From positions 13,206,001-13,270,000 of the forward strand of contig OX344752.2 in assembly GCA_947034885.2 (NCBI GenBank): a DNA stretch of 64,000 nt, in the 5' to 3' direction. Origin of the DNA: Thuidium tamariscinum (lineage: Eukaryota; Streptophyta; Bryopsida; Hypnales; Thuidiaceae). Position numbers and translations under genes: made by a program. Positions 14,511 to 39,883 of the stretch are shown piece after piece (position 1 is the stretch's first letter; each line of letters opens with the position of its first letter). The notes beneath the pieces are model-generated. The model did no database searches. It worked only from the letters and a program-made list of their open reading frames with translations, and had not been told where the DNA came from.

Positions 14511-14514
14511 TTGC

Positions 14515-15870
14515 AAGAAACACTAGTCCTATTTTCTATCCTTGTAATTGTGGATAGAGGATTTTTGTTCATAACTTTTGTATTGTTTGTCCATATCCTC
14601 AAAAATTTGTTGTGAAGGTATATGTGAATTGTAAAATCCTAGCCTCCTAAGAGTTGTGGAGTAATTTTTAAATTTTTTAAATTTACTACCTTGGCCATTT
14701 TGGAGGGTTTAAATACTACTTTTGATTCAAAAATGCAAATTTGAAGTTCAAAATTGGCAAACATGTGCTCAAAATGCATTAATTTTACACAAGTGCAAAA
14801 GACACAAATTTATTTTTCTAAAGATGAAAATGGTTGAAAACAAGCATTTTTAAGCTAAGAAAAATGGAATTTTTAGATAATTTTTTACTATTTTTGGACA
14901 ATTGCATGAAACACTTGTACTATTTTCCGTCACACGTCTCATGTTGAACTGTTTTTTGACCATAACTTTTGCATTTTTTCTCTAAATGACTCAAGATTTC
15001 TAGAGAGGTACTCATAACTATCATACAACTTACATTAATTTTTGATAATTTTCAAAAATAGTTTAATATAAAAATAGTACTAGTGATTAAATGTCATATA
15101 TGACAATCTGGAGGTTTTTAGTACTATGGAATACCTTTTCTTAATGATTTTGAGATGAAATTTGGATGAGATGGTCTTCTATTAGACTTATAGCTTTCTA
15201 CAAAAGGATTTTCAAAAATAGTTAATTTTATGTCATGTGGAGGTCTATAAAGAGAGCTTCATTCTGCTTGTATTTTGAAACATATAAAATATTATTTTGG
15301 TAGGTTCTTTGGTAAATGACCATCTCCATAAAGTTGTTGCAAATGGCCACTTTTTATTTTTTGTATTTACTTATTTTTACTATTTTTTCCTAATTAAAAC
15401 ATGAAGATATGTATTTTCTTTAGGTTTGGCACTTTTCCAGTTCTCCTACTTAGAAAATTTCCCTATACAATTCCTTTTGTAGGTACCTTTGTCTTAAAGG
15501 TATATACATAAGTCATTTTTTTTTTAAATTTAAAAACTATTTTTCTAATTAAATAGTACACCAGAAAAAATCAGGGGTACTATTGCAAAATGCAACAAAT
15601 AGTACAGGCGTTTCATGCAATCACCCTTTTGGAAATCAAAGTATCAAACATTAAAGTGTCTACTTTTTTGGTATTTTCCATCACTCTTTAAATGTACATA
15701 ACTTCGAGGGATAAATTTTTTTAGGCTTGAATTTTCACACTTTTTTGATTGATTTACAAATTATTCATATTTTATTTAATCTAAAAAAAAGATTATTCTA
15801 AAGGTCAGAATATTCTACTATTGAGGCCATTTTGAGCCAAAATTGGTAAGTACTTTTTGCAATTCTAGTC
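14515..15870. mobile_element. 4-bp-TSD TIR element, type B copy 1, interrupted
   Basis: Starts GGGTGATTGCAAGAAACACT and ends in ACTTTTTGCAATTCTAGTC, flanked by ATGA (14511-14514 and 15871-15874). Its two outer parts (14515-14895 and 15627-15870) align in order with the uninterrupted copy at 39163-39883; the middle is occupied by a type A element. Without the insert it is about 620 bp. No transposase remnant is visible. Confidence 0.75.
14896..15626. mobile_element. 4-bp-TSD TIR element, type A copy 1, nested in type B
   Basis: A 731-bp element with ends GGACAATTGCATGAAACACT and, inward from the right, GGGTGATTGCATGAAACGCC, flanked by TTTT on both sides. The body is closely related to 30216-30950 throughout, including ATTTTGAAACATATAAAATA in the middle. 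It sits inside a type B element and is therefore the younger insertion. Confidence 0.82.
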
Positions 15871-15874
15871 ATGA

Positions 15875-17910
15875 TTGGAATGTGTCCTTCTAGAAGTTCT
15901 ATTTTTTGAAATGCAATTGTACATGTACATAAATGGAAAGAGACACAGATCATAGAATCAATCATTTATATTCTTCTTTACATATCCAATCTATCATAAA
16001 ATGTGAAGTTGTGAACCACTAAAGGACCAAGTGGTCATTGAACAAGCAATTGCTTTATCAAAAATTCTAGTACGTTCCTACATATAGTCAATTTTGAATG
16101 GATTTCCACCAATATAAAGTCTCTTAGCTTGGATTACATTTGGTTTCTTTTTTTGTGATGCACTCTATAACTATCTTTACATTTGCACCAAAAGATGAAT
16201 AAATTTTGAACTTTCTTAAAGTTTGACACATGATGTATTGATGTGGACATGTACCACTTAGACAAGAATATTATTTTCTATAGTTCAAATGGGTGCTCCA
16301 AAAGTTATGCTAACTACAACTATTGGTACAAGGTTGACGGCTTGTCGGCCTCAACCAAGAGTCCAACACCTACAAAATTCTTTTTTAAGAGTACATCTAA
16401 ACTTTGGTAAGTATGTAACTCATAACGACTTGTATGATTTCAAACTAGAGAGCACATGGTACTCTAGACAAGTAGACATGTACCTACATAATTCATTGTT
16501 TATGAATTTTCATTCATCGTACATATTTGTTTATTTCATTCATGGGACATACTCATGATGATAAAGCAGTGATTGTTTGTACTAATAAGTATTTGTTTAT
16601 TTCCGGAGTACAAAGCTCATGATGAGAAAATAGCAATTGTCTGTAGCAAAGTACTCTAATTGGAATCCCATACAACATCTAGGATGCAGAAGCACCCAAT
16701 AGTCCTCTTGCATTTATAAACTAGTATAAAACCTCAATGAGAGCTAAAGTACGTGGGTACAGCACTATACCATATAATTCCTGTAAACAAATAATTCTCA
16801 GTGTGACCTGTGACGCTGAAAGTCTGGAGCTTCTACTTCCAGTTGGTACCTGAGTAGTGAGTACCTCTAACTACGGCAAGCTGAATCGCCCAGTTCGAGC
16901 GATCAAATGCTACCAAGGCAATTGATCTCCTCCATGATCTACTTGCTCCAGGGGCCCTCCACAAGGCTCGGTCGTTTATTTTTCCAATGCAAACTTCCGT
17001 CCGAATCTGGACTATGACGAACACCCTATTTCAATTCGAGTGTCGTTACTGTCGTAGGATTTCAGAGGTTGCATGCCAGTTTCTCACGATCAATCATTAT
17101 TTGTAGTGGCAAGATGTTACGTGCCGGAATTGGATAATATTATGGCGAAGAATTGCCTTACAATATTGAGTGGGCCTGATGGATTGACTTGCATGTGCAG
17201 TCTCCTGAAGACTGAAGTACGTACGTGCGTCAGTGAATTACGTACGTAGCAAACGTAGTACTACAGTAGTTGACTGAGGCGGGAACTGATCTTGGTTGTT
17301 GCCGGAGTACAACGTAACTCTGCTTGCGCTCGATCTCTGCAGCAGACGACCGACCATATCATCCAGGGCAGTTCGTGCTCAGGAGCGTATTCATGCATGT
17401 TTGACTCCGCAATAGCAGACGGTCCTCTACTTAATTATGCAAATGATCTCGTTTTGCTGCTCGCATTCGATTACGTACTGTACGTCTTCTGCTACATTCT
17501 AATCTTCATAGCGCTAGCTGGCAGCTCGATGGAGTCACGATCTCAAGGCGTTCGCAGAGGATCGGAGCCACGCGTGCATGTACTAACGTGATCCGATTGA
17601 ATTGAGATTGCCGGACTGGATTGGCAGAACCTAGCTCAGTCGTGCAGGATCGGAGCAACTCAAGTTGATTTGTGCCTCACAGTCGTCACAACGTCTTCGA
17701 AGCACTTTCGGAAGCCGATCCCCACGCAGAGCTCACCTCGGCCAGCCAAAATCGATCGCAGCTCTAGCTCTCCCAGGAAAGTCCATCGATAGTCACCTAC
17801 TGCATGTACATGTCGCGTCTCTACGTATGATGTCGATGAGCGGCAAGAAAATCCTACGGGGAGTCGATGACGCCACGGGCGCCGCGATGCTTAACTTTGG
17901 GGCCACGGTT
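15875..17910. other. Intergenic DNA, AT-rich then mixed, no gene recognised
   Basis: The first part is AT-rich. From about 16,830 the composition becomes gene-like, with GTACGTACGT words at 17,215-17,260 and plus-strand frames at 17292-17591 and 17665-17976. Neither frame matches a family I know, and none gives the missing SAM-binding part of the downstream O-methyltransferase. Confidence 0.3.
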
Positions 17911-17916
17911 CACCTT

Positions 17917-18234
17917 CGATTCATGGTACCGGTTCAGTCTTCCAAAACTAATCGATCATCTTGTCACTGTTCATAAATAATTTGAATTAATCAGAAAAAT
18001 AGTTTCATTGCTGCAGAATAATTAAGAAGCTCATGATCAGACAATGTCCAGATTTTATCGAGTGTGAATTCTTGGATATTTTATTGAGTGCACAACCACT
18101 CGATAAAATCTAGACATTTGTCTGATCATGAGCTTCTTAATTATCCTGCAGCAATGAAACCATCTTCCTGATTTATTCAAATTATTTACGAATAATGGCA
18201 AGATGATTAGTTTGGAAGACTGAACCATGAATCG
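17917..18234. repeat. Long imperfect hairpin, arms about 140 bp
   Basis: The left arm (17917-18064) and right arm (18097-18234) are near-perfect reverse complements separated by a loop of about 32 bp. Matching words include TTAAGAAGCTCATGATCAGA against TCTGATCATGAGCTTCTTAA. The first arm overlaps the end of an open frame. It could be a foldback MITE or an inverted duplication; if transcribed it would make long double-stranded RNA. Confidence 0.85.
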
Positions 18235-18597
18235 ATAAAATCTGGACGGAGCTTTATTCCACAAGTCAAAAATTCTGACATATATCTTCACGAAGGTGTA
18301 ACTTCGAATCACAAACTGGGACTCACAGGTAAAGTCTTTGGTTTCAGGCCGCGCGTCTTGAACCACACCAAAGACTTAATGGAATATCTCCAGTTTAACG
18401 AATTTGGCATCCCATGTACTTTTAGATTTAATGTTCTGCCAGAGTTCACAACCTTCCTATCGTTTCATTTCCTTGCATAGCATCTGAAACCGAACACGCA
18501 GCAAAAGCGGAGATTCGAGTCCGTTCATAACAGGGGTGACGCCATCTTCATGAAACTTGTTCAAATCTCAATTATACCTTATTTTTGAAAGATAGAG

Positions 18598-19380
18598 ATC
18601 TAAATCATACTGCCCACTGGAAACCTCAAATCTATACCAATCCTGAATAGCTTTAAGTGTTTCAAGAGCTTTGAGCTCTTGAAACTCCAAATACATCAAT
18701 TTTGTTAAATTGACATGATTTAGCGTCAAAATTGTGACATTCAATTGCATAGAGGTCCGAAACTTAAGTCTGGAACAAATCATTGTTTCATGACTCTGCC
18801 TTTGAAATTGCCAATTGATACTGTGATTTTCTGTCCATAATACGAAATTGACTTTCTTAGCTTTCCTAATCATTCGACACTTGAACATCATAGGTTCATG
18901 AGACAAGAGAACTAAATCATAATGCCCAATCACTAATGGACATTTCTATGGTTGAGGAGGAGACGACTATAATTGTATCCATAACGCTATGTACATTTGA
19001 GTTTAAAAGCTCTGTGATGAAATGGTCACTTTCGAAAAAATGGCATGTTTTAGAGAAATCAAATTTGTGATGTTCCAAGCGTCCAAAGATTTGGAATGCT
19101 AGGAATGCCAATTTTGTATTATGGGCAGAAAATCTAGAAATTCACAACAGTGACAATTTCAAAGGTGGAGTCCTAAAATAGTACATAATTTGTATCAGAT
19201 CTAGAACTTCTAAGATCTCTATGCAATCTTTGTGCAATTGAATGTCACAATTTTGACTCTAAATCGTGTCAATTTTTACAAAACTGATGTATCTGGACTT
19301 TCCAGAGCACAAAGCTCTAAAAACACTGAAAACACTTAGGATTGGTATACAGTTGAGGTTTCCAATGGGCAGGTCAAACT
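18598..19380. repeat. Diverged inverted repeat, arms about 310 bp
   Basis: 18,598-18,910 and 19,060-19,380 are diverged reverse complements; for example ATACCAATCC plus AGTGTTT on the left match AACACTTAGGATTGGTAT on the right, and ACATTCAATTGCATAGAG matches a CTATGCAATC..AATTGAATGT block. The ends are not sharp and I found no target duplication. It lies upstream of the O-methyltransferase exon. Confidence 0.65.
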
Positions 19381-19941
19381 GCGCAAATTCCAATGAAGTT
19401 CGTCAAGGAAAAGGAATGGAAACTCCTGAATGCACCAGTAAGTATGCCCAGTGCCCTGAATGACCGAGCACTTTGTCTCCACCCACTGCACAGCTTTGAC
19501 TGCCTAGGAAGTCAACGTAATATACGTAACGTTCGTGAAATGAATATAATACCAACACTAGGCACAATTGTTGTGTACCAAAGTATTGGTGTCCGTAAAA
19601 GTTGGAGTCTGATACATAGTGCCAATCAACTTCGTTAGTTTGGTGGTTTCGGGTGTGCCTACCTTGACTTGAAACGAGTTGATGTCCTGTAGCACTCTGC
19701 TTGGATTCCTTCTCAGCCCAATGCACGCAGAACCGCAGAGGACCCAAAACGGTCCAAAGCATGTAAAGGACGGAAACCAGAGCTCTCAGTGTTTTGAATG
19801 TCAAAGATTTGGAAGCTCCGGAACATGCTGCTCTAACGAATTGGTAGAAAATAGGTAAGTTACCTGTGCGATTGCCATGGTCATGGCCACTAATTAACTT
19901 CATGATGTGCCCTCCCCTCGGACTGTCTTGTCTATGGCCAG

Positions 19942-20247
19942 TACATCTTGCACGACTGGAACGATGAGAGCTGCCTCAAGATCTTGAAGAACTGTTACCA
20001 CGCATTGCCCGCACACGGCAAAGTGATTGCACTGGACAACCTGCTGCCTGAAATTATCAGCTTCGAAGGAGCTGCGGATGGCATGGCTTTACAAGTGGAC
20101 ATCCACATGTTGGCGTTCAATGACTCGGGGGCGCGTGAACGAACAGAGAGCGATCTTCGCAAGCTGGGCTTGGCTGCAGGATTCAAACGAGTCAAGGTGG
20201 TCTGCAAGGTCGACATGCTTGCTGTCACAGAGTTTCTCAAAGCGTAA
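19942..20247 (+). pseudogene. Last exon of a caffeate-type O-methyltransferase (orphan fragment)
   Basis: An acceptor (GGCCAG at 19936-19941) is followed by 101 codons to a stop, beginning YILHDWNDESCLKILKNCY, the hallmark block of plant class II (COMT-like) O-methyltransferases. The histidine in HDW is the family's catalytic base. Later blocks GKVIALDNLLPE, the GMALQVDIHML segment (usually DLxMMA) and the C-terminal GFKRVKVVCKVDMLAVTEFL also fit the last third of the family. The normal protein is about 350-380 residues and needs an upstream SAM-binding domain (VDVGGGTG, GDMF). I could not find those parts within 3 kb upstream, where retroelement debris and inverted repeats lie. So this is either a gene fragment or the 3' exon of a gene with a very long intron. 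The exon itself has no stop or frameshift. Confidence 0.7.
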
Positions 20248-20270
20248 ATGACGGAATAATTTGACTCGTA

Positions 20271-20330
20271 TTTGTGTAAAAAAATTAAAAATAATGAGCC
20301 TGAGAATGAGAATGAGAATTATTATTATTT
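20271..20330 (+). mobile_element. Very short retroposed insertion just after the O-methyltransferase stop
   Basis: Sixty bases starting TTTGTGTAAAAAAATTAAAA and containing (GAGAAT)n and ATT repeats are bracketed by the perfect 11-bp repeat TTTGACTCGTA (20260-20270 and 20331-20341). The start equals the last bases of the family at 10608-10688, so it looks like an extreme 5'-truncated copy with an irregular tail. It begins 24 bp past the stop codon, in the presumed 3' UTR. Confidence 0.65.
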
Positions 20331-20426
20331 TTTGACTCGTACCATAGCTTGGGTGGCAGTGATAGACTGAAGTAAAGATTGTTGAATTAGGTATCTAAAG
20401 TTGATTTTGGGTAGAGCAATGTGAAG

Positions 20427-20694
20427 ATGGTCAATTTCGTTAAAATGGTGGTATTCCGAGTGCCATTTTGCCAAATTCCAATGCCATTTTGCCATATTCC
20501 ATGTGCCACTTTGACAAATTTCAAGTGTCATTTTGACATTTTTGTGTACCATTTTGACATAGAGGCATAGTGGTAGAAGAAAAAAATGTGCCATTTTAAC
20601 GAAATGTTGTGCCATTTTAACGGAATATCATGCCAATTTAATGGAATGTCATGTCATTTTAATGGACTATCGCCATTTTAACGAAATTGACCAT
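20427..20694. mobile_element. 4-bp-TSD MITE with iterated terminal motif (type E), copy 1
   Basis: A 268-bp element with TIRs ATGGTCAATTTCGTTAAAAT at the left and the same inward from the right, flanked by GAAG (20423-20426 and 20695-20698). The interior is an array of about nine 20-30 bp units related to the right TIR (TGCCATTTTGACAAATTCCA type). Copy 2 is at 51568-51772. Confidence 0.82.
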
Positions 20695-20698
20695 GAAG

Positions 20699-21820
20699 GT
20701 ATTAGAATTTTGAGCTATCAAAGATTCTGCACTTTCAATTGCATGAGATTGAATTTGAAAACAAACAGGATAATTTGGTGACTGAAAAACTGGACATTCT
20801 TGCAATTGGCAATCTGAACAAATCCTCCATCTGCCTTGCAACTCTTTAACTTGGGACTCTTTGAATTGCCTTCTAATATATATAAAAGGGATGTGTGTTC
20901 TGGTGATGATATATTTATAGGAGTTCTTATAAAACGTTGTACTACATCTATTATATTAAGTACATATGGTCACGACCCCTGTCACGACCCAATGTCACCA
21001 AAACAGTCACATTTTCATCCAAAATATTTTTCACGAATCCAATCCATTTTCTCCTAAGCTCAATCAATGTTACACTGCAATAGGTGTGTGCTAGTACTTA
21101 CTCATATTCAAATATTCCCTACGGGTAGTCCAATGTCACAAAGAAAGCGAATACATTGGTTGCATAGTACTTTCCCTTAAACCTAAGTACGAATAGGAAA
21201 CAGTAGAAAATGTATGCAATTAAGCATTTTATCTACAACATGGACTCGGAAAAATGAAGCCATTCCATTTACAATACACGGTACATTCAATAACAAATGC
21301 ATCTCGTGACTATTCTCTGAGTTTCCTGTGAGCTATTCTATGGGCGTTCCTCTGAGCATAACTTGTTGTTTGACATGGAAGAAGCCTCAAGTCCTCGTCT
21401 TTCCCACAGTGCGGAACAGGTTTGCTAAATTCTCAAAGTCGTGACAGAGGAATTTGTCCAAATAATCGTTACATAACTAATCAAACTTCTCTTAGCGCAT
21501 GCGAACAGTGGGGAGTAGTTTTTAGCAATATGCACATGAAGAAGCCCAATCATGTTCTAGTTGTCAATTGTGTCAACATGCTCATGTCATACAATAATTG
21601 TGTTGGAGTGGTGGTTCATCTAAAAAACAAACACTTGATGTTTGACACAAACAGCTCCATCTATAGTTAATGTAGCCAATTTTATGCCCATAAAGAGTTA
21701 GCAAATAAAGAAGTGCAATGATTTATGCAAGTAGGAAATTTGCCTTATGAGAGGTTTGATTGTATATAATCTTTGGTTGAATTCCACCATTCTTTGCAAG
21801 GAAGCTTAATTTTGCTTTAC
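20699..21820. other. Intergenic DNA, nothing recognised
   Basis: AT-rich, short frames only. No paired ends or arrays stand out. Confidence 0.35.
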
Positions 21821-21823
21821 TAT

Positions 21824-22220
21824 GAGTTTACCACTTAGCATGAGGTAATGGCCATATTTTTCCCACATGGTAACCGTTTCTACTTTCCCTATGATATTTT
21901 TCATAGTACTTATCTATTGTTTTTAGTACTTTTTAGTTGTCTTAGTTGACTTCTATTATACTAGTAAATACTAGGAATCAAGCAAACGGATGTAACACAA
22001 AAACACATTCATGAATTTCATCATCGTTTTTCATTTGCTTGATTCCTAGTATTTACTAGTATAATAGAAGTCAACTAAGACAACTAAACAGTATTAAAAC
22101 AATAGATAAGTACTATGAAAAATATCATAGGGGAAGTAGAAACGGTTACAGTTGAGTTTACCACTTAGCATGAGGTAATGGCCATATTTTTCCGACATGG
22201 TAACCGTTTCTACTTCCCCT
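21824..22220. repeat. Foldback with a third partial copy of its arm
   Basis: Left arm 21871-21986 and right arm 22034-22148 are nearly perfect reverse complements (about 116 bp, loop 47 bp); CTAGTATTTACTAGTATAAT on the right is mirrored on the left. In addition, 21824-21890 is repeated directly at 22154-22220 with only a few changes (GAGTTTACCACTTAGCATGA shared), so the outermost arm sequence is present three times. It may be a foldback transposon with a rearranged end. Confidence 0.82.
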
Positions 22221-22771
22221 GTGAATAGTATAGAAAATACAGAAGGAGAATCATGTAAAGAAGTGAATCACATCAATATGGTAGATGCATCTTGGATCTA
22301 CACACAAACATCAACAACATTAATTACAAGCTTGTTAAATCAACAAAAAATAGATTAAAATTCAATATAAAATTATATGAATAAAATAATGACTAATCCA
22401 AACTTTTGTTATTGTTGGCTCCTATGTTGGCTACTATAGAAAAACCTTTATTTTTAAGCATTGGATGGCCTTGTCAACAAAGAGTTATGAAAACAAATTA
22501 ACTTGACTAAATAGTAAATATGACACAATAAATCACTCTATATTACTAAGATCAATTTTTTCATGATCAATTTTGCGATAAGACTTAGCAACTATATGAC
22601 TAGTGATTGTTATGTCTTTCCACTAGAAAAAAAAATGTTGTAGTAAACAAAACAATGTTGGATTGTTTCTATTGACTATGCTCTTAAAAATGTAGAAATT
22701 TGTGTTTGAAATTCTATCTCAGAATACAAGCTTCTCACATGTGTGTCATACCTATAGCCCTTTGTCACTTA

Positions 22772-22919
22772 CACTCCTACAAGAAAACATGGCCCAAATC
22801 AAGAATGTTAAGTTCATTTGAACATCTTGATTTGGCAATTTTACATACAATTGTGTTAATTTGAACATTTTATATTCATTAGGACATCTTAATTCAAGCC
22901 CTATTTTCTTATACTAGTG
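22772..22919. mobile_element. Short CACTA-type MITE
   Basis: A 148-bp element with ends CACTCCTACAAGAAAACATG and, inward from the right, CACTAGTATAAGAAAATAGG, flanked by the 3-bp duplication TTA (22769-22771 and 22920-22922). CACT-starting TIRs with 3-bp TSDs are typical of the CACTA superfamily. The centre also folds back (AAGATGTTC-like words in both orientations). Confidence 0.7.
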
Positions 22920-22924
22920 TTATT

Positions 22925-23450
22925 TGTGCTCTTCTTTAATTTTAAAGATGGCACAACTTTAAAGAGTTACTGGGTGATACCATTTAGTGTATTCAATGTG
23001 AAACTCTTCTAAAAGACCACTAATTATGAAAGAACTTGACTTGTATTTTAGAAGTAAGTAAAAATTAGATCGACAATATTAGACGGACCAAATAATGGCC
23101 AATGAGATACTAAAGTTTTGTATGTAAGGACTAAATCTGCATCATAGTATTGAACAAGCTTTCTTGCTATATTTGTATTACAATGTTAAACATTGACCTT
23201 CCATTTTTTGGGGGGCCTAAGCAAATATCTAGTTATCTACACAAATATAAGTTCATGAATAAGCAATTGACAAATCAAATGAATAAACAATGAAAAATAA
23301 TGACAAATAAAGTGTGCATATTTGAAGAATTTTTCTCTATACTAATCCTTACAAATATCAAATACATTGTTATTATAGTCTTGAAGTTCTTTTCCTCCTC
23401 TAATAAATTTTTTTAATTATAATTATAAACAATTCACCTATTTAGTCTAC
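22925..23450. other. AT-rich intergenic DNA
   Basis: Nothing recognised beyond scattered AT-rich short frames. Confidence 0.35.
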
Positions 23451-23451
23451 A

Positions 23452-24128
23452 AGCATGCTTCATAGAAGCTTCCTCATTGTGACAATTGTGAGGCAATGAC
23501 TGCCTCTTTTGAGCTCATTGTCATTGTCATTGTGACAAACTCTAACACAATGAGCTCAAAAACTAAAAAAATTTAAAAATTGAATTTCGCCCCCCCCCCC
23601 TCCCAATCTGATTTGAACATTAAATTTTAAATATTAAAGTTTTTTAACTTTTCAAAGCCCCCTCCCCTCCTGATTTAATTTAATTATTAAATTTTGAATA
23701 TTAAATTTACTATTTTTGAATCCCCCTCCCTCCCACCCCTCTTATACTTCTCACAGGGTGGGCTTGGTTACAATGCATATGGGATAAATGGGGTAATAAC
23801 CATATCCGTATTTTGTATGAATATCCGTATCCGTATCCATATGGGTATATGTATATAGTATTAGTATTTGTATTCAGTATCAGTATCAATATTCTGTATC
23901 TATACTCTATGCCAATATTTTCTATCCATATTCTATACTCATAACTCATATACTATACCCGTATTCTATATCCGTATCCGTATCCAACGGCTCTTGATTT
24001 TTCTTGGAGGGGAGGTGGGATTTTTTAAAATTCAAATCCAACGGTTCTTGATTTTTACTGATGAGGGGGCTTAGGAAAATTAATCCAACAGGGTGTGCTG
24101 CCTCTTTTCGTCACATTGTGAAGCATAC
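23452..24128. mobile_element. Probable TIR element carrying a TATCCG hexamer array, copy 1
   Basis: Ends share ATGCTTCA, CATTGTGA and a GAGGCAG-like block in opposite orientation, suggesting degenerate TIRs. Inside are a C10 tract, several CCCCTCCC blocks, and at 23,794-23,990 a degenerate array of TATCCG/TATCCA hexamers followed by CCAACGGCTCTTGATTTTTC twice in variant form. Similar arrays at 29,736-29,935 and 42,262-42,425 suggest a family. No clean TSD was found. Confidence 0.5.
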
Positions 24129-26313
24129 CTCTTTCCTTGTTGCATATTAAGATACTACTTTTTAAAGTTTGTTTTCCAAAATTTGCATTGATCAACAATT
24201 CATATGACAACTTAGTCTATTGCCAATTTTATTCTTTAATACTGAGGATCAATCAATATATTAAAAAGTTGAGCAAGCTTGGTAGAATTTTTTATATTGC
24301 ATTGTTCTTCTCAAGCACATATGATATGAACAATCTATAGCAATATATTGGCAATGTTGTGTTAACAACAAACAATATTGAAAGTAAATCAAGTAGTTAG
24401 ATAACAATTCAATTCTTTATTAAATATAAATCAACTACGTAATGAACTAAAAAAATTAAATCAAAGTAGCAACTTGAATAAAATACTATCTGATGAGGAT
24501 AGCAACTTGAATGAATTATTGCCTAGTGAAATTAGCAACTTAATAGAACTAGATAAGCAACTTGACAAAATTACTAATTTAATTAGTAAATGATTAAATC
24601 AATGATTTGACTAATCAAATAGTAAATTTAAGATTTGCTAAATGAAATGAACAAACTATTAGTTATAAATCAAATCAACTAATAAGTGATTAGAAATCAA
24701 ACTAAAAAATTGATTAGTTCTAGCTATTACAAATCCAAAACATAAATGAAACAATCATTAACTCAAGACTCCAAAAATTGAAATACATACATGCCAAGCA
24801 AAAAAAGATCTCTATTTTTTTCAATAGCCTACAACATAAGAAATTGTAGCATATCTACCAAAGAACAATATCATCTTGATGTGAAAGGTCTTGAATGCTA
24901 ATGTCAATAAAGGAGCTTTTGTACAATGAAAACTCATTAAATGCACAACTGACTTCATTACATATGATCTTTGTTGATGGCCTCCTTCCAAGATATTATT
25001 AAGTTTTTTATTGTCTATGTCTTGAAAATCATTCAATAGCATTAGAGCATCAAGATCGTCATCATTTGAAGAAGAATTAGCATCAATATCCATACTATTA
25101 ATAACTACTAAATAATTGTTGTCTAAATTAGGGACAATAAACAATATCTTTGAAATTAAGACAAAAATAGCATCATTCTCTATAATATATGCACTTGTAT
25201 AATTTGAATTCTTTGGTTGCATATTAACACTACCAACAACAACCCTAGATTGAGATTCTACATTGACAATGAGCATAACTTCATTTACCACAGTGTAAAC
25301 ATTTGAATAATTGGGCTCAATGGCTTCATAGAAACCTTATGATACACACCATCATTGAAGGTGTCCACATTGAGCTCAACTGCTTTGACAACAAGTATCT
25401 CAAACTTACATTGACAATTGACGAATTCATCGTAGACAAGAAAAAAACTCTATCTCAATTCTACAAGGAAGATCAAGAGTTTTATTGGCAAGAGACACAT
25501 AAGCACCAAGAACCTTAGCATTAAGTATGCATCATATAGTTTTAGATTCAAGAAGAAAATGAAGTGAAGTATCAAAGATATGATCAACAAACAAACTCTA
25601 AACAATCTTGTTACCTCCTTGGGGGGTGCAATTTCTAAAAAAAATAAGGATATACGTGCAAATACCCCCACTAATTTATAAGGTGGGATTATTTTTGTCT
25701 ACTATTTTTTTGGCATTCTATGATTATATAATTTTCTAATTTGGATCATTAAAAAGGGGGCACATTAATTTTAATTTCCAAATATAAACCATGAATATAT
25801 GAGGTTCTATTTTACTATTAATTTTTTTTTCTATTGCATTCTTTTTCAACCCCATTTTTTTCCAACCTTATTTCTTTCCAACCCCATTGAAATTCAACAC
25901 CTTTCTAATTGAAATTAATAAATGGGATTTGTAATGTAAGCCCAAAACCCTTAAATACCATAAATGCACTTACGCAGTGGAATTTTAAGAGTTTCCAGTG
26001 CCAAATCTATATAAATCAATGTATTGGGTTAAATTTGGATATTAATGTCAATTAAAATGTGGTACTATGAGATATCAACTATTTTATTTTTTAAATTGAA
26101 GATTTGAACATGTTAAACTACAAAGCCAAATGGAAATAATTAATTTTGGTGAACTATGGTAATCCAAGTACAATTGGCCTTATACCTATTAGCTCATTTG
26201 AAATTGGTCAATTTATAAGATCTTGTATTGCAAATCCCAATCTTTATGGAATATATGATTTTTCTTAAACATACACCAATTGAATTCTTTTTGAACATAC
26301 ACAAAATTCTATT
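24129..26313. other. AT-rich intergenic DNA with an unassigned frame
   Basis: A minus-strand frame at 24821-25291 (156 codons) has an acidic SSSNDDDLDALMLLNDFQ stretch that is reminiscent of transposase N-termini, but I cannot assign it. The rest is low complexity with T-rich and C-rich runs near 25,800-25,900. Confidence 0.35.
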
Positions 26314-26317
26314 TTTA

Positions 26318-27241
26318 ATCCCTAAAGGTTTTTTACTATGTTTTTACCAAAATTGCTTCAAAACTATCATTTCTTAGACAACTACCAAATTTTAAGAAAA
26401 GAAAAATTTTAGACAAAAAGTAACCATATGATCTTTTATAACAGAGGTTCAAGAAGATGTTCCGCCATATAGATTACAAGATATTAGTGTTTGAAGTGAC
26501 AAAAATCATTTTTTTACCACTGCAAAAATCTAGGCAACTGTACTTCAGAAGACCATATTTGTATAAAAAAAAATACCCAAAATGATTGTAACTCTTTGGA
26601 TTCATTCTTCAAGTGAAGTTGGCTACATGCTTGAAAATTTTCAGATCATTTGAAATTGCACAACATATAGGAAAAAAATAGTAAGTAGAAAGAAGTAGAA
26701 AATGAGCCAAATTACTAAATTATTAACAATTTATTTTTAGAGTTAAAAGAAGACAATCCCAATGTTTGTAATGTTGTGTTAAGCAATATGCACCCAATTT
26801 TTTTTAAATATTAAAAATTGAGTTAAATAAAGAATTTCAAACTTTTTTTGTAGTGTAGAGATTCTATAACTAACTGCAAACCACCTCAAACTAAAAATCT
26901 TCATAACTTTTGACTCATTAATCAAAATGGAATGATTCAAATCTTTCCACTTAGATAAAAATCAAAGAAACCAATTTCAAATTTTAATTTAAAAAAAAAG
27001 TGATTTTTGAAGAAGTTTTTTTGGTTACCCGGTATGCCCGCCGAGTAAAGAAAACTACATATCATACGTACAATAACTTTTTCACTATGTAGTCAAAAGT
27101 CATGAAAATTGTTGGGCCTTAAAGCTATTCCTTGGGCACATGTTGTGTGAAAATTTCAAAGAAAAAAAATAAAAACTCCATCTATAGTGAGCTGCCCAAA
27201 ATTGCTATGTTGCCAAAAAACACAGTTTGGTCCTTTAGGGA
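26318..27241. mobile_element. TTAA-flanked TIR element (type C), copy 1
   Basis: A 924-bp element between TTAA sites (26314-26317 and 27242-27245). The left end is TCCCTAAAGGTTTTTTACTA; read inward, the right end is TCCCTAAAGGACCAAACTGT. Both TIRs then contain a TGTTTTT block and CAATTTTGG or its relative. TTAA duplication is used by piggyBac and Kolobok transposons. It matches the interrupted copy that ends at 38995. No coding capacity seen. Confidence 0.78.
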
Positions 27242-27245
27242 TTAA

Positions 27246-29430: not shown

Positions 29431-29735
29431 TCTTACATTAAATTGATTTGAAAACATGTGGAAAAAATTTCAAAGTTTTTCTTTATGTAGATTGTAGGAT
29501 GTTAGTATTTGAATGTTCAAAATAAGTTTTTTTCAGTCCACAAAGAACAAAGCAGGTGCTCTTTAGTAACTGACAATGTCCTAAAACGTGGCTGCATATC
29601 CTTGGTCAATTAATTTTTCCCTCTTGTCCCTTAAGAAATTTATAGGCCATTGATTGTTTCAAAAAAAGATGCTTACCCTTGAAATCACCATTGATTTTCC
29701 AAAAAATCATAAGCCATTGATCTTGTGGGATTTAA

Positions 29736-29935
29736 TCCGAATACGGATATAAATACAATATCATATATGAATATGTAGTGATACTGGATATGGATACCAT
29801 ATCATATGTGAATACGTAGTAAATATCATATACAAATATGAATATTAGATATGAATATGGATATGGATACAAATATGATTGGATACAATACAGGGATATG
29901 AATACAATACCAAGATACAATACAAATATGGCATG
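29736..29935. repeat. Degenerate ATACGGATA/ATATGAATA hexamer array, copy 2
   Basis: About 200 bp of iterated GGATAT, GAATAT and AATACA hexamers, the reverse-complement sense of the array at 23,794-23,990. A G9 tract follows at about 29,985. It lies in a segment (about 29,560-30,090) that interrupts the type C element. Confidence 0.7.
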
Positions 29936-30215
29936 AATTGTCCCATATTGTTTGTCAATGAAATCGGTTTCTCAAAATTACAAAGGGGGGGGAGAAGAAT
30001 AAAAGTTTTAAATTTTAAAACTTTAAATTAAAATTTTTTTTGGCAATTTCTGCCACTTTTTTAGACATTGTGACATAATGTCCTGAAAAGGTGGAGAAAC
30101 TACCAAATCCAAATTTTAGCAGGTGAATCATATGAAAAGTAGTTCAAAACAATTGTGCTTCTTTGGATTTATTGCTGAGGCCAAGCAAAGTACTTGCCTA
30201 AAAAATTTCACATTA

Positions 30216-30950
30216 GGGTCATTGCAAGAAACACTTGTACTATTTTGTGTCACATGTTGCATGCTGATCAGTTTTTTGGCCATAACTTTTGTGTTTTAGC
30301 TCCAAATGACTCAAGATTTATAGGGGAGGTACTTATAACTATTATACACCTTCCTTGATTTTTTTCATAATTTTCAAAAATAGTTTACTATCCAAAAGTA
30401 GACCCCGATTGGATGTCATACTTAGTAGTTTAGGGATTTTTAGTACTTGAGCTATACCTTTTTTTAATGATTTTGAGATGAAATTTGGATGAGATGGTCT
30501 TCTAGTAGATTTTTAGCTTTCCAGGAAAGGATTTTAAAAAAAAGTTAATTTTGTGAGGTGTGGAGGTCTACAAAGTGAGCTCCCTTCTGCTTGTATTTTG
30601 AAACATATAAAATATTATTTTGGTGGGTTTTTTTGTGAATGACCATCTCCATAAAGTTTTTGCAAATAGTCACTTTTTATTTTTTGAAAATACTTATTTT
30701 TAATATTTTTTCCTAATTTTTGAATCAAAATACCTATTTTCTTGAGATTTGGCACTTTTCAAGTTCTCCTACTTAGAGAATTTTTCTATCAATTTCCTTC
30801 GGTGAAAACCTTCATTTTAGAGGTGTATACATTATTCATATTTTTTTTTTAAATTTAAAATTAGTTTTCTAATTTTATAGTACTACTGAAAAAATCATGA
30901 GTATTGTTGGAAAACGCAACAAATAGGACAGGTGTTTCTTGCAATGACCC
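30216..30950. mobile_element. 4-bp-TSD TIR element, type A copy 2
   Basis: A 735-bp element with ends GGGTCATTGCAAGAAACACT and, inward from the right, GGGTCATTGCAAGAAACACC, flanked by ATTA (30212-30215 and 30951-30954). Flanking sequence joins to match the type C element, proving an insertion. It is collinear with 14896-15626. The TIR similarity extends over about 30 bp. No transposase coding sequence. Confidence 0.88.
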
Positions 30951-32828
30951 ATTATTTGGAATTATAAAACATATAGGAAAAAAATAGTTAGTTGAAAGAA
31001 GTAGCAAATGATTCAAAATACAAAAGTGTTAAGAATTGATAAGGAATTGAAAAATGCCAATCTCAATGGTTGCAATGTTGTAGTAAACAATTTACATCCC
31101 ATTTTTTTTTGAAAAATATTGAAGATTGAGTAATATAAAAGACTTCAAAGTTTGTATTAGGGTTGTTGCAAGAAACACTGTGCAAAAAGCGTAGCATTTT
31201 CAATAGTACTTTTTTTTTCAAGGAGTACTTTAAAATTAGAAAAAAAAGTTTAAAAAAAAGTGAAAAGTATGTTTCATGTATAAACCTGTAGAATGATTTA
31301 GATCCTAATTGGTAATTCTAAATCCTAAGTGTAAAGTTCGTTCAAGGAGGACTTTAAATAGGACTTGCTTCTAATACACCTAATTGTCATTGCAACTAAC
31401 ACTAAGAAGTCAATTTGCCCTTTAAAACCACAATAAGTATTTTTCTCCCATTAAATTACTAATTAATAAATTAATTTCCATTCTTAAAAAGAAAACACAA
31501 AGAGTAAAAACTCTCCCAGTTTTGTAATTCTTCCTTTAGCCTTTAGCCAATCAAATTGCTCTTCTTAGCAAACCAAATTGGATTGGCCTTTGCAGCCTCC
31601 ACTAGCCTTCACAGCATTTCCAAATTGATTTGGATCTTTTAGCTCACTCCTACTTGGCCGCCTCACCAACCAAATCAAACTTGTCTCCTCCCAAGGATTT
31701 ACAGCTCAAAGCTTCCACCAACATAATTCTTCTCCCATTTGGACTTAATCCATTTTTTTTAATACTTATTTTTTTAATTTATTTTTCACTCCTTCCCAGA
31801 TCAACTTGATCCTAACTCCTAATCGGTAATTGATATGAGCTTAACCCTAGGCTGTCCAAGTGGTCAGATTATGACCACTGAGAATTATAAAAAGCCTTGG
31901 AGCCATCTGAGATTTGGGTGGATGGGTGGGACCAAATATGGGTTACAAAGCTGGCGTTTAGGAGGACAGTAATCATGTAAATGCGCAAACAATTGCGTAC
32001 ATTTTGGGTGGTAGGGTAGGCAAATAGATCAATGAGACAAATACAGGACATGGCAGTTGGGTCGAATGTCCTAAAAATGACCGGGAAGAGCCGGTAGCCA
32101 ACCGTTGGGCTTTGGATTCGAGGGTCGTGGTAGAGACAGTCTCGTAGGGTTTACGATGTTCATGGACTCTTGTTGCTTTCAGCGTGAGAGAGTAGCACGG
32201 ATGACTAACTTACAACACAGGGTTGTTGATCATGACGAGTGAGAGCATTTGCTTCATTTGTAGGAAAATTCCGAAGGCACTCACACGGATTTTCGATTCA
32301 GCATCCAAGGTTGCTACTATACCTTGTTGAGAGAATATGAGTAGGGTGAGTGGAGAGAGAGCAAGAATGCATCATTTTTGTGATTGTCGGGAGAAGGCGG
32401 GTGGGTAGGACTACCGAGTGGGGGCCTTTTGCGATCAGCACTACTTCCACTTCGATCACTGATGAGTGATACTTTGGATTCTTGAAGGATATTGGCCAAC
32501 ATGACTACAACATTGTGGTTTGGGAGGGCTACAAAGGAAGAAGTATTTGATGTGCAAGATAAGTTGTTTCATTGGGCATTGGATAGAGGAGCGAGTAAGG
32601 TGATTGCACAAAACGTGGTCAATTGTTTATAAGAAGATTTTCTTCTCTCACTGCCTAAACCCCACTGTAATCACAAGTGGAGTAGCAAACCAGGGCCACA
32701 CAATTGGCGCTACTTATGTCGCAGGCAGATTGCAAGGTTGCTAGGGTGGTCGGAGTTGTATCCTGAAGGAGATAGTCGTGGAATTCCGCAATTCTTCAAC
32801 CTCTTCTTGCGCATGAAACAGTGGCCCG

Positions 32829-34028
32829 ATGATGAAAGCCGAGGCGAGGAAGAAGGCTACTCAGGCTCTCGAAGCGAGACCTGCCCCGCAACGAGGACGG
32901 ATTCGAAGAGCGCTGGTAGCAGCCCGAAATGGTGTTCAACAAGGAAGCGTCTCAGATAGGTTGATGCAGAACAAGGCATCAATCGGAACAACCGTGCCAA
33001 GCAGCTCTAAAGGTGCTACTCCGGAATTCTCCGTGGTAGAGGAAGGTGGTAGGACACAGGCTGTCAGGGAGGTGGTAGGTGGTGATGGGAGAGGACAAGG
33101 AGATAATATTGATGAAGTGGATATAGCTCAGCCACATTGCAATGTCAGTGTACAAAATGTGATTGCAGGGAGGGAGATAGGATTGCCAAATTAAAAAAAA
33201 ACTCATTTTCGTTTAGGGTTCAATACATTTGAAGTAGGTGAAGGTAGTACGCCAGCAAGATTGGATCACAGAGTGAGTGAGGGAAAGAGCATAGTTTGTG
33301 GTCGTGTGAAGCGAAATTTCAATCAGCGACAGCCAAGAGGATGGATACCACCTGAAATTCAGGTTGGTGGTAGAACACCACCTATACTAAGGTCGAGAGT
33401 ACGACTTGCAATAGAAAAGGAGCAGCGACTAGTGGCATCACCACAACATTCACCAAGCTCGGGTTGCAATCAACGGCGTCAACGCTGCAGACGTGGGTCT
33501 TCGTTGACAATTGGCCCTATTGATCCACTGAGCAATTTTGATGTTCACGGGCATAGTAATGAGGAACTATTGGAGCCAAGAATTGATACGCAAGAAGAAG
33601 GGATGCAAGAGCAGTCGGCGCAAGTGATAGGTCCATCGCGGCGTGCATTGAATCTTGGGCCTGCATTTGACAATGCTGCCCGAACTGGAGAATGGTTACA
33701 GTCATTGCCTCATGTCCCAGTGATACATCCACTTCCAAGGCCAATTGCGTCACAAGGTCTGAATTTGGATAGGGGGCCACAGCAGTTCCAAACTTTAGTG
33801 GAACTAGCAGTGACTGTAGTAGAGATGGAGGGAACTTGTGCTAATAGCATTGAAGAAGGAACCCCACATCTCGTGCACCATCGATTGACGGTCGATGACG
33901 GAGGTTTGCCAATTTGCAAAGATGGTTTTCTGACACCTCAGTGCAGTACGTCTCCGTCTCCAAGCCTCCAAGTCGATGGTTTGGAAGTTTCCACAACAGA
34001 TTCTTGTGACACAACTTGGGTGTCTTGA
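32829..34028 (+). pseudogene. Upstream frame of the piggyBac element (disordered N-terminal region)
   Basis: A single reading frame of 400 codons broken by one TAA (33192-33194). It is rich in Arg, Gly, Pro, Gln and Glu with no recognised domain (PQRGRIRRALVAARNG, RRQRCRRGSS). The transposase continues in another frame from about 34,030-34,046, where TTTCACAG followed by GTAATA could be a splice site; an intron or a frameshift would explain the change. I infer it is the N-terminal extension of the transposase or a separate accessory protein. Confidence 0.45.
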
Positions 34029-34045
34029 TTACGCTGATTTCACAG

Positions 34046-35778
34046 GTAATAACTCTTCTGATGATGATAACTCAGATTGGCTCTTGCTTGAGGATGAGGA
34101 TGCAATAGATGTAGAGGCCCCTTTTGATGTTGAGCAATATAGAGAGTATACATACATAGATCCCATTCAGAAGGCTGCAATTGAAAGAATTCGCTTTCTA
34201 TATAGAGATTCTGAGTAGAGCAATTTACGTTCAACCTTGCTTGGTGACCGAGCGAGTTTCACAGGGCCGTTTCCTGGTCCAATTCAACGCTTCACTAGGA
34301 ACAAGCCTCCTGCACGTTCCTTCTTTGACTTGTGGTTTGATGATGCCACCCTAGACCGGCTTGTGTTTGAGACAAATACATATGCTGCACAACTAGCTAG
34401 TAACTTAGGTGACCCAAGATGAAGAGGCAGGGTAGCAGGGACAAACGGTGGAAGCCGTTGGACTCCAACCACTAGATTAGAGCTCCGTGCTTTTTTTGGG
34501 GTCTCAATTTTAATGGGGCTGAAGACTTCACCTTCCATCCGCGACTATTGGCGGGAAGATGTCTTTTGGAGGTGTGGTGTTATTCTACAAGTTTTTTCTC
34601 ATGACCGCTTCGAATCACTTTTACGTTGCATCCACTGCACCAATAACTCCACAATTTGTCGGGATAAGGAGGATCCTTCGTACGATAAGCTTTTCAAGAT
34701 TCGTTGGTTGCTCCAACACTTTGTTGCAGTGTCGCAACGACTTTATAACCCTGAAAAATGGCTAACCTGCGATGAAATTATGATCGCTTATAGGGGCTTT
34801 CGAAGTCCTTGTCGGCAATATATGCCCGCCAAGCCGACGAGGTATGGCTTTAAATTTTGGGCTGCCGTATGTGTAGATTCGAGTTTCATTTGGAATATCA
34901 TTCCTTATCTCGATAGTAGTGGAGTACCTGAACTTGGTTTGGGAGAACGTGTAGTCCACCAGCTTACAGCTGGTTTGCAACATCGAGGGCATAGTATCTG
35001 TGTTGACAACTTTTTCACGGGACCATCTCTATTTGACGGATTCTTACGCCGTAGCATTTATGCAACTGGAATTGTCAAAGGACAACACTTGGGCTTTCCC
35101 TCTATGCTTTCAAGGTTCAAAAAAGGTGAACATCCACGTTCTACCATTTTCTGGGCAATGCATTCAAGCGGAAGAATGGCAGCATCTGTGTGGTACGATT
35201 CTAAGCCCGTGACATTTTTGAGTACTTTAGCAGACCCTATAGGGCCCACAATTGCTCATCGTTGGCTGAAAGGAGAGAGGAAGGAGATTCTGACCACACC
35301 GCAGCAAGTTGAATATCAAATCAACATGTGCGGTGTGGATCTTGTAGACCAAATGAGGAATAACTACACGACCCAGTTTCACAGCAAGAAATGGTGGCAT
35401 AAGTATCTTATGTTTATCATAGATTCTGTTCTCCACAATGCCTGGGTGTGTTTTAGGCATGACAGACGTGCAAGGGGTGAGAGGAAAGTGCGGCGCATAA
35501 ATTTTATGTATGAAGTCGCTTTCGGCCTCATACTACCAAAGATACCTTTGCCACGTACTTGTTCCCGCTGGAATCGTCATCCCTCGACTCTCCATTTTCT
35601 ACAAACTGATCCTGAACTTCGGCGCAGATGTTGTGTTTGCAAGCGCAGACAGGCGGACTATTGTAGAGCTTGCGGATTTGTCTATATGTGTAGGGATCCT
35701 TGTTTTCCGAAGGTACATTCGTCCAAAAAATGGGCATTGCGAGCCTACGACTTCGGTGCTCGCCACCATCGTAACTAA
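34046..35778 (+). pseudogene. piggyBac transposase (DDE_Tnp_1_7), two in-frame stops
   Basis: The frame carries an acidic stretch (NSSDDDNSDWLLLEDEDA), then the start of the transposase domain (FFDLWFDDATLDRLVFETN), the LRAFFGVSILMGLKTSPSIR block and the catalytic core. Counting from the methionine at 34513, the acidic residues of the triad are D87 in WLTCDEIMIAYRG, D165 in SICVDNFFTG and D276 (with D279) in GVDLVDQMR, matching D268, D346 and D447/D450 of insect piggyBac. The end carries the cysteine-rich zinc-binding domain (CCVC, CRAC, CRDPCF and H402). From the piggyBac family this enzyme would cut and paste at TTAA. A TAG at 34216 and a TGA at 34420 interrupt the N-terminal part; from 34423 to 35778 the frame is open. 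The copy is therefore probably inactive, though not old, because the catalytic part is undamaged. Confidence 0.9.
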
Positions 35779-36819
35779 TGGTGTTTGTTTCTCGTTGGTT
35801 GTTAGTGTGGATGGTGGCCACTAGCCCATTGATGGAGCCTGGGTCACTCGGATTGACTGGCCGCCGGTCTCGCGTGAGGACCCCGCATTTTGAGCCACGG
35901 TTTGATACGGATTTTTGGGGAGGGTCATCGCCGCGAAGCCCAAATGCAGATTGACTGTAGCTGAGGAGATTCTGCTTTCCCGCAACTTTTGGCAGATTTT
36001 ATTGTAGGCTGTTGAATCATAAAGGCTTCCTTGCAGGGTTTACTGTAGCTTGCAGATTTTTGGGAGCCTGCTAGGTTGGAGTGGAATTTGACTTGTGCAG
36101 GAACTACAGTAGATTGAATCGTGTTTTTTTGTGTCATCACTTTCTGGCTTCTTGAACTGTTGTTGCTATAAACAACTCTTTCGGATGTTTTCACGGAGGA
36201 TTTCAATCCATGATGCAAATTTTCCTTCTCAGAACAAATCTGTGGTAAAGTGTGATTGGATTTGCTGAGGTCATCGTGTCAACCTAAAGGCGTTTATTCT
36301 TCCCGCATTATCTGTCCTTGCAATGTTCTTCATTTTTGCAATTGTTGGCCTCCTAGCTTGTCACCGGCAGTACAGTTCAGGATGTGCAGGCTATCCCAGT
36401 CACCCTCTCTCTGACCTTCATGAGCTGCTTCGATTTGGAAGCTTCCTGTGTGCACAATTTTGAAGATTATCAACATCTTTTTTTACCACAGAATTATAGG
36501 TTGTTGCGTCTTGCATCGGTGGAAAGTTCTGTATTTTTGCAAATTTGCACAGCACACATGTGACTAGAATTCTGCGGCAACATTCCAAAAAATCCCTGCG
36601 ACGGTAGTAACTCGACATTCATCAAGTACTATAATTTCTCAATCTGACCGACCAAATTCGCTATTTCCTCGTCATGTAGCTTCAGTGCTGACCTTGTCAC
36701 ACTTTAGAACGGTAGATGTAGATCCTTCCAAGCAGAGATGCCGCAAGCCATGATTCTTTCCAGACTGCCTCAAACAGCGAGCCACTGACCCCGTTCAAGA
36801 CTGGGCGGTCTAGGGTTAA

Positions 36820-38628
36820 ACCCGATTAGGAAGCAACTAACAACCAGCATCCCAACATACTAAATCACCCCGAATTGTATTCTTCACCTCACATCAGATC
36901 ATCTTCCAATTTGGCATACATCATAACATTCCCACATACATGCACAAATACCCAAATTGCTTTCTAGCCAACCAAATTGATCTATGTCACTCCAACAACT
37001 AACACAAGCAATTCCAAATTGACTTCATTCTCATAACTCAGCATTGTAATCCAATTGGAAATTAATCCATCATACATTCATATATAGGAACTCAAATCAC
37101 TTCCCATTAGCTTCAAATCAGTTCTATACAGCTTGATATTAATTCCGATTTGGTGACCATATCACCATTAAACATTATCATTGTTTTCAACTATTGTTTT
37201 CTTTCTTCATCAACTAAACTCTTGATTTCTCAATCTCCTATTTGGAATCATGTTTTGAATTCAACTCTCTCATACACCACTGATTCCCTAATTGCTACCA
37301 TCACAGTAAATAAACCAAATTGTGGACTCAAAATTCTACAATATACTCATGTCCCCCAATTCCTACACTCCTAATCAGTAATAATACTTTTGATTACTCC
37401 GAAATAGGAACTCATTTTCACCACCTGCACCAGTTCTCCGACTTGGACACAGACTCACACACACACATTAACACACCAAAAACAAAGAAATTTCCCACTT
37501 AGAAACACAAACAAAAAATTCAAATACACAGCACGATAGGCTGGGACTCGCAGCGGATACATTCAACATTGGGTGCCAACCAAATTGAGAAACACAAACA
37601 AATAGGAATTCAAAAACAGTTACCAAAACTGCCCCGACTTGGAGCCTAACCGCCCAGCACAAACCGAATTGGAACCATAAGCCTAACTGCCAGTCTGGTA
37701 ACCCCATTTGGTACTAACAAGTGGCCCTGCCTCCAACTACTCCGAATTGACAAACCAAAATCCGACTTGGAAACACAAAAGGAATTCCACCAACTGGGAT
37801 CTGACCTGATCCACCAATAACCTCAAATTAACCCACTCGGCAAACTCCATCACATCCAAATAGAATTCACACAACAAAATTGGTTCAAAAACTGCACTCC
37901 CAATTGGTAAAAAAAACATACAAAATCATCCAATTAGTGCATAAACACCCTAAAAAGCCTTCAAAAACACAAAATTAACCCCAAAAATTCGTACAAAAAG
38001 TTAAAGTAAAAATCCTATTAGGTTATCTACAAAACCTTTAAGAAGAAGGGACCCTAGAAAGGAAAGGCATAGGAAAAATCTCTAAGAAGGAAAACCAGAA
38101 AAGTGCAAAATCTCATGAAAATTAGTACTTCCACATTTTAACTTGTAAGAAATAGGAAAATCAATTTTTTTTAAACTAAAAATTTTCCATTTGAAGAAAG
38201 TTGATTTTGATGAGATTTGACTGAAAGAACGATCTTAGAACCATCATCAATGTTCAAAAATTGTGTGCCACGGGAAAAAATTTGTACTCACGTGGAAGAC
38301 ACAAAATAACATATTTTAGATTTTAATTTGGAATTTATAGGTTTTACAATAGACCATGAAAGTTTCATCTTCAAATCATTAAATTTAGACACTGCGAACG
38401 TAATGATAACCATAAACTACACCCAATGACAGCTCAACGAAAATGATTTTTAAATATAAAATAATTTTTTTTAATTTCTGAAAATAAGGGATCTAATAAA
38501 CTTCAAGTTAGGTATGTTCAATAAAAATTTCATGTTCATTGGACTTAATCTCCAAAAGTTATAGTAGAAAACAAAAAAGTGGTTCGCACTGTGACACAAA
38601 ATAGGACCAATGTTTCTTGCAATGAGTG
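36820..38628. repeat. CCAAATTGG-rich body of the type D element (right part)
   Basis: Words such as CCAAATTG, CCGAATTGG, CCGACTTGG and CCAATTGG recur every 20-60 bp from about 36,890 to 37,930, and the same words occur left of the piggyBac insert (31,540-31,840). No exact unit length holds, so it is a motif-dense region rather than a simple tandem array. Minus-strand frames here (37468-37707, 37737-37919) are by-products of this composition. Confidence 0.6.
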
Positions 38629-39162
38629 ATTAGTGTAAAGAATCCATAACTACGTGCAAACAAAAACTCCTTATAACTTTTGATTCATTGATCAAAATGA
38701 AATGAATCAAAGTTTTACATATATACATAAATAAAGAAAATCAATTTCAAATTTTATTTTTGAAAAAGTGATTTTTTTCAATCTGCCTAAACTACCCATT
38801 TATAAGAAAAGTAGGCATATTAGACTATAACTTTTGAGTTATATTTCCAAATGTCTTGATTTTTAGTACACATGAAAGATATTTCTTGTCCTCATGTTCT
38901 ATTAAAATTTGGGCCCAAAATATGAAAATCTCAACCCATACATACCTACCCAAAATTTCTATGTTGCCTAATTTAGTAGGATGGTCTTTTAGGGGTTAAA
39001 CTCTTTTTTCAATAAATGGAATTTGAGCTACAATGGATTTGGTTAGTGGCCACAATCAATATCTTATGGAGAAACTCTAGTGTACATTCAAATATGACTA
39101 GTTTATAATTATAAATTCAATTTTTTTCATTGGAAGTGCATTCAAAAGTATTTTGCATGGAT

Positions 39163-39883
39163 GGGTCATTGTAAGAAACACTTGTCCTATTTTTTGTCCC
39201 CTTAGCCTTCAACACGTGGTTTTTACTCATTACTTTTGCATCATTTGCCCATTTCACACGAAACTTGAAATATAGATATATATAATAGTTCTAGACATTA
39301 CGTATTTTTTGAGTTTTCTTAAAGTTATTTTACAATTTTCAAATAGCCCCCAATTGGATGTCTATCTTGGCAATTTGGGAAGTTTTAGTCCTATTTCCAA
39401 CCTCAAAATGCAAAATTTAAGCTCAAAATTGACATATTAAGACTTCTAATAAAGTTATACAAATCTTCAAAGAGATTTTCTAAAAATAATAAATTGTCCA
39501 ACTTCCATATATGCTCAAGGTGCAATATCTTTGTGTAAGTGTAGAAAACACAATCTATTTTTCCCAAAGATAAAAATGTTTGAAGAAGAAAATCTTAAAA
39601 TTAGAAAAAATGGTTTTTTTTTTGAAAATTTCTTGAATTATTTTACTATTTAAAGAAACACATTAAAATGTCAATTTTCATGGTATTTTCCATTACTCTT
39701 TGAGTGTGCATAACTTTTAAAGATAAATTTTATAGGCTTGATTTTTCACACATCTTAATCTTTTAATGCTTTACAAATTATCTATATTTTATTTTATTTT
39801 TAAAAAATTGTTCCAAAAGTCATAGGACTCATTGAAATAGGCCACTTTGAGCCAAAATTGGTAAATGTTTCTTGCAACAATTT
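39163..39883. mobile_element. 4-bp-TSD TIR element, type B copy 2, uninterrupted
   Basis: A 721-bp element starting GGGTCATTGTAAGAAACACT and ending, read inward from the right, AAATTGTTGCAAGAAACATT. It is flanked by GGAT (39159-39162 and 39884-39887). Collinear with both outer parts of the element at 14515-15870, e.g. the shared word TTTTGAGCCAAAATTGGTAA type near the right end. Confidence 0.8.

Follow-up and report, generated by a model that had tools for sequence, protein, structure and literature searches.

A large family of miniature inverted-repeat elements with 4-bp target-site duplications in the moss Thuidium tamariscinum, and a candidate transposase

Results

Five elements in one stretch of moss DNA share a terminal sequence

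We analysed a stretch of 64,000 nucleotides from the moss Thuidium tamariscinum (hereafter the window; contig OX344752.2, here C4, positions 13206001-13270000, in a searched assembly of 363 Mb and 19 contigs), which contains five delimited elements with a common terminal inverted repeat (TIR), GGGTCATTGC, each lying between 4-bp target-site duplications (TSDs; Table 1). An original prediction, made from the letters of the window alone, had assigned one terminal sequence to all five and listed their duplications as ATGA, TTTT, ATTA, ATTA and GGAT; both claims were borne out when the ends were read directly. The TSDs of the elements A1, A2 and B1 and of the 7.5-kb copy are all exact and flush with the ends. 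At the remaining copy, a type-B element split by A2, the right TIR is degenerate and lies 2 bp out of register, so that this copy fails an automated test for flush TSDs. Its predicted end at 15870 and its ATGA duplication stand, and its true start is at 14505 rather than 14515.

A sixth left end had been proposed at 51489. An end is indeed present, as a degenerate relic that agrees with the type-A end at 25 of 36 bases (15 of 36 in the next best register) and aligns by BLAST at 74% over 51498-51562. A small element just inside this relic, at 51568-51772, is palindromic, its 31-bp inverted arms (94%) enclosing ATGGTCAATTTCGTTAAAATGGC; related motifs occur at positions 20603 and 20624.

The TIR is roughly 19 bp long, and most copies have GGGT..ACCC termini. 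At up to three mismatches it has seven matches in the window, where 0.09 are expected and none of 100 shuffles reaches seven or more. Across the assembly, up to two mismatches yield 18,810 matches (9417 + 9393), compared with 3 + 3 for a reversed-pattern control. If these ends belong to some 9,400 elements, each of 0.73 kb, the family makes up roughly 2% of the genome by our estimate. Among full-text papers, parts of the TIR occurred in only one, an unrelated paper sharing a single 14-mer. The extended TIR had no matches in viral contigs, and scans with Rfam and for tRNAs likewise returned none.

Table 1. Transposable elements and related features of the window
Feature	Position	Strand	Description
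Type-B MITE split by A2	14505..15870	+	TSD ATGA (14501-14504 / 15871-15874)
A2, type-A MITE	14896..15626	+	731 bp; TSD TTTT; nested in the 14505-15870 copy; 81.9% identical to A1
A1, type-A MITE	30216..30950	+	735 bp; perfect 18-bp TIRs; TSD ATTA (30212-30215 / 30951-30954)
MITE of the L010/L018 subfamily (7.5-kb copy)	31160..38628	-	about 733 bp when its insert is left out; TSD ATTA (31156-31159 / 38629-38632); 7.5 kb through nested insertions
Second-level insert	31291..38031	.	6741 bp (about 1.77 kb once its passenger is subtracted); 9-bp repeat on each side
Third-level insert, piggyBac element	31845..36815	+	4971 bp; TIR CCCTAG.. (11/14); TSD TTAA (31841-31844 / 36816-36819)
piggyBac-type transposase frame	34423..35775	+	DDE_Tnp_1_7, E 8.6e-64
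B1, type-B MITE	39163..39883	+	721 bp; TSD GGAT
Degenerate left-end relic of the family	51489..51562	+	no right end recognised
254-bp MITE, TIR shared with giant DUF7869 elements	57088..57341	+	TIR AAGGCCTTATTCGTTAAAATGAGAC at 0 and 3 mismatches of 25; TSD ATGA

The elements are non-coding and fall into related body groups

These elements are miniature inverted-repeat transposable elements (MITEs): they are short, with defined ends, a TIR and a TSD, occur in many near-identical copies and are non-coding in the elements examined. No stop-to-stop frame of at least 85 amino acids lies inside A1, A2 or B1. The window had been described as holding a DNA transposon family; the family and its TSD stand, and the elements themselves prove to be MITEs.

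We grouped the bodies of 28 elements, chosen by hand from the TIR pairs. Fifteen belong to group A (714-745 bp), six to group B (719-729 bp) and four to a group of palindromes (three measuring 1075-1082 bp, the fourth 804 bp), with three singletons. The long palindromes (L011:1046-2124, L020:6176-7257 and L027:1026-2100) match their own reverse complement almost over their full length at 91-95%, and the 804-bp element has 264-bp arms that are 95% identical. The A and B bodies are partly collinear, and the longest BLAST alignment between B1 and B2 is at 72%. The prediction of three body types could not be upheld, as its third type, the 7.5-kb copy, began as a MITE of 733 bp and was later enlarged by insertions.

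Inside either group, A or B, the best alignments fall to about 70-72% with the unit length unchanged, and copies of the GGGTCATTGC lineage still measure about 730 bp at a divergence reaching about 30%. At the other extreme, a search with A1 gave 6644 candidates at first look, of which the 40 best, A1 among them, share 94-100% identity with it; one neighbouring copy is at 88%. Twenty A1-like copies together with A1 lie at a mean distance of 2.7% (1.8-4.1%) from their consensus, in a sample picked for closeness to A1 with older copies left out. Because this distance is small, the A1-like subfamily was active fairly recently.

The duplication is 4 bp long at diverse target sites

We examined the flanks of 54 candidate TIR pairs, 300-2000 bp apart and including chance pairings, drawn from the window and from 20 fetched 10-kb loci around perfect TIR matches on contig C1. 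At 23 of these pairs the same 4-mer directly abuts both ends, and at none when the ends are displaced to any of eight other shifts (-4 to +4); none of the 54 has a flush repeat longer than 4 bp. A second sample comprised 20 of the 39 other best-scoring A1 matches, on ten contigs; these are mostly whole-query matches, those starting inside the TIR having been left out, so that intact ends are favoured. Here the 4-bp TSD is exact in 18 copies, and three of the four bases agree in the other two. The constant length at differing sequences holds in copies beyond the window. With the repeats confined to zero shift in one sample and nearly universal in the other, it is exceedingly improbable that they arise from chance or from artefacts of assembly.

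The duplicated sequences are diverse (TAGT, GTTA, TCCC, ACCT, TGCA and others), and some contain G and C. They lean towards A+T, with ATAT preceding 286 ends and TGCA 47 under the same exact TIR pattern, a lean that owes partly to base composition.

The transposase gene in the longest copy belongs to a passenger of a passenger

Both sides of the 7.5-kb copy align with two MITEs from other loci, L018 (733 bp) and L010 (732 bp), at 88-89% over positions 4-608 and at 87% from position 600 to the end. Because these alignments overlap by a 9-bp direct repeat (AAACCTGTA at 31282-31290 and AAACCTTTA at 38032-38040, alike at 8 of 9 bases), the DNA between the two repeats is an insert in the MITE. The sequence CCAAATTG is concentrated in this second-level insert (outer parts 31291-31840 and 36820-38031), with seven of its nine occurrences in the window falling in the outer parts of the 7.5-kb copy. 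The insert in turn carries a piggyBac element that TTAA flanks at either end.

Pfam searches, in which 24 submissions (some of them overlapping) were drawn from the window's 91 stop-to-stop frames of at least 85 amino acids, recognised a single transposase between the TIRs of any copy, the piggyBac-type frame within the innermost insert (Table 1). Its relatives among PDB entries are 6x67 ("Transposase"), which we take to be piggyBac, and 9c0f ("piggyBat transposase"). As the only such enzyme between family ends, and one whose superfamily likewise makes 4-bp TSDs, it could be thought to move the MITEs with a relaxed choice of target. We consider this very improbable. The nested TTAA boundaries, inside the second insert inside the MITE, show that the gene is the passenger's and not that of the 4-bp-TSD family; although its TSD has the same length, the piggyBac element is a separate one with its own, different TIR, none of the five TSDs in the window is TTAA, and those of other copies are varied. 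The 7.5-kb copy is therefore ruled out as an autonomous element, being a MITE that grew through two insertions, one nested in the other.

The list of plant TIR superfamilies in part of one review is without piggyBac (PMC10741241), while sections of a C-fern paper (PMC6890710) and of another review (PMC10004981) list piggyBac repeats or MITEs. A full-text literature search combining piggyBac, Physcomitrium, superfamily and transposon gave no matches.

Six other long pairs are also enlarged or adjacent MITEs

Listing family ends next to a palindromic TSD reveals both ends of one element, and we listed all 47 TGCA matches and 100 of the 286 ATAT matches in this way. Among the matches listed, most TIR pairs are about 720-735 bp apart. 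Six long pairs were fetched (L029-L034), several other pairs of 0.9-1.7 kb lying outside the sample. Five of the six, L029-L033, prove to be MITEs that carry inserts, and the sixth, L034, holds two adjacent MITEs. A further candidate, L015, was rejected: of its four frames on the minus strand, three have matches to Pumilio PUF repeats or to the NABP family, so that it is a host gene with a MITE end next to it. The search for long elements with a coding interior, which the original prediction had suggested, has in the 7.5-kb copy and these six pairs led to MITEs with inserts or adjacent MITEs, and to no coding copy.

DUF7869 genes lie in giant elements that also make 4-bp duplications

A profile search of the genome for PF25273 (DUF7869) gave matches at all 150 candidates scored, from 852 at first look, with a best E of 1.3e-51. 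Many candidates have open frames of 950-1076 amino acids, and 47 of the 150 scored matches lie on contig C11 (17.5 of the 363 Mb). A protein search with the frame at L056 showed DUF7869 in at least 120 of 190 relatives, that is, in all 120 listed, most of them without a name; the named relatives among the matches listed are from Physcomitrium patens and Ceratodon purpureus. A full-text search of the literature for DUF7869 returned no papers.

Comparing the flanks of L056 with those of a copy on C4 gave a right terminus, AAGGCCTTATTCGTTAAAATGAGACAA. The pattern of WNNW plus this terminus has 71 matches in the genome (40 + 31; control, 0 + 0), and 28 of these can be joined into 14 pairs, with 17.5-22.8 kb between partners and a DUF7869 match inside every pair. 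The 4-bp TSD is identical in 11 pairs, alike at three of four bases in two and at two of four in one, whereas shuffled partners have a mean of 1.07 identical TSDs and at most 7 in 10,000 shuffles. We read these as giant DNA transposons with a 4-bp TSD. They resemble the MITE family in the length of the TSD and in that their TIR also bounds a MITE, here one of 254 bp that is absent from the original prediction (Table 1); the TIR itself differs from that of the MITE family (AAGGCCTTATTCGTTAAAATGAGAC for one group).

Other genes in the window

A terpene synthase frame (Terpene_syn_C_2) lies on the minus strand at 2886-4070. Its top match (74%) is without a name, and its best named relative is from the moss Pseudotaxiphyllum elegans (55%), with another from Ceratodon purpureus (48%). 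A frame at 48153-48656 on the plus strand has a Polyketide_cyc domain (E 8.1e-8) and is possibly part of a host gene.

Discussion

The GGGTCATTGCAAGAAACA elements are best explained as non-autonomous DNA transposons of a moss, a large and long-lived family that moves by cut and paste; we put at about even the chance that the account set out below, its enzyme included, is right as a whole. A transposase supplied in trans would bind the TIRs of about 19 bp, excise the MITE in a cut-and-paste manner and insert it at a 4-nt staggered cut with a loose, A+T-leaning specificity, leaving the 4-bp TSD. The original prediction had argued from the constant TSD to a single transposase; one TIR family with a constant TSD at varied sequences does imply one type of transposase. 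For this enzyme we propose the DUF7869 type, which would drive the giant 17.5-22.8-kb elements in the same genome. Such a transposase, possibly of Sola type, is our candidate mover of the GGGTCATTGC MITEs, a proposal we hold to be as probable as its opposite.

Several observations weigh against this assignment. A coding element with the family TIR was not found in the small sample that we read out of some 9,400 elements. At five DUF7869 loci (L055; the C6 flanks L057/L058; L056; the C4 flanks L059/L060; and L061), which are just five of 852 first-look candidates and were read in their gene-proximal part only, the GGGTCATTGC TIR does not bound the gene; the complete family MITE upstream of the DUF7869 gene at L055 is a separate element. 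DUF7869 termini also differ by group, with one group ending in AAGGCCTT.. and the alignment of two copies from a second group stopping at AACACC.., and 43 of the 71 terminal matches are unpaired under the exact pattern.

The MITEs might instead be moved by a 4-bp-TSD transposase outside DUF7869, for instance one of Academ or Chapaev, both of which make 4-bp TSDs, or of an undescribed kind, with autonomous copies that would be scarce in this genome or lost from it. We regard this as a serious possibility, a little short of an even chance. It would account for the elements read, among which no coding copy with the family TIR was found, and for the other termini seen near the gene at the DUF7869 loci examined. 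Against it, DUF7869 elements are abundant and, besides the TTAA-flanked piggyBac, are the sole coding 4-bp-TSD transposons found, a weak argument, as the genome search covered this one candidate family.

Tourist/PIF-Harbinger MITEs have TIRs beginning with GG or GGG, and the family described here is, like them, short and bounded by TIRs. Their TSD, however, is 3 bp, TAA or TTA, in a section of one review (PMC10004981), as against 4 bp in the moss family. Ginger elements, given termini TG..CA and TSDs of 4-6 bp in part of another (PMC10741241), were rejected on their termini, those of the moss family being mostly GGGT..ACCC.

The original prediction was right to name Sola as a superfamily to consider. 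Parts of two sources describe it as a plant superfamily with a 4-bp TSD, known from Physcomitrella (PMC10741241, PMC9033089), and the MITE family shares this TSD length; Sola1 has been reported from this moss. Giant forms are reported elsewhere, and passages of one paper describe giant Sola-1 elements in Ectocarpus, with one family of 21.5 kb (PMC12477816). In contrast, the Sola2 TSDs of amoebozoa are given as AWWT or AT-rich in part of a further paper (PMC3627910), whereas TSDs such as TCCC, ACCT and TGCA in the moss family contain G and C. DUF7869 may be the Sola of the literature (Sola1 in mosses).

These findings are a warning against taking a long copy for the autonomous one because its ends match. 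With 18,810 recognisable ends, the family is a sizeable share of this moss genome. We tentatively suggest, at a likelihood clearly below even, that DUF7869 is the core of a transposase superfamily that builds giant 4-bp-TSD moss transposons and whose diverged relatives sustain MITE lineages such as GGGTCATTGC. The connection of giant 4-bp-TSD transposons with a Pfam domain whose function is unknown offers a testable lead to the enzyme behind unassigned 4-bp MITEs.

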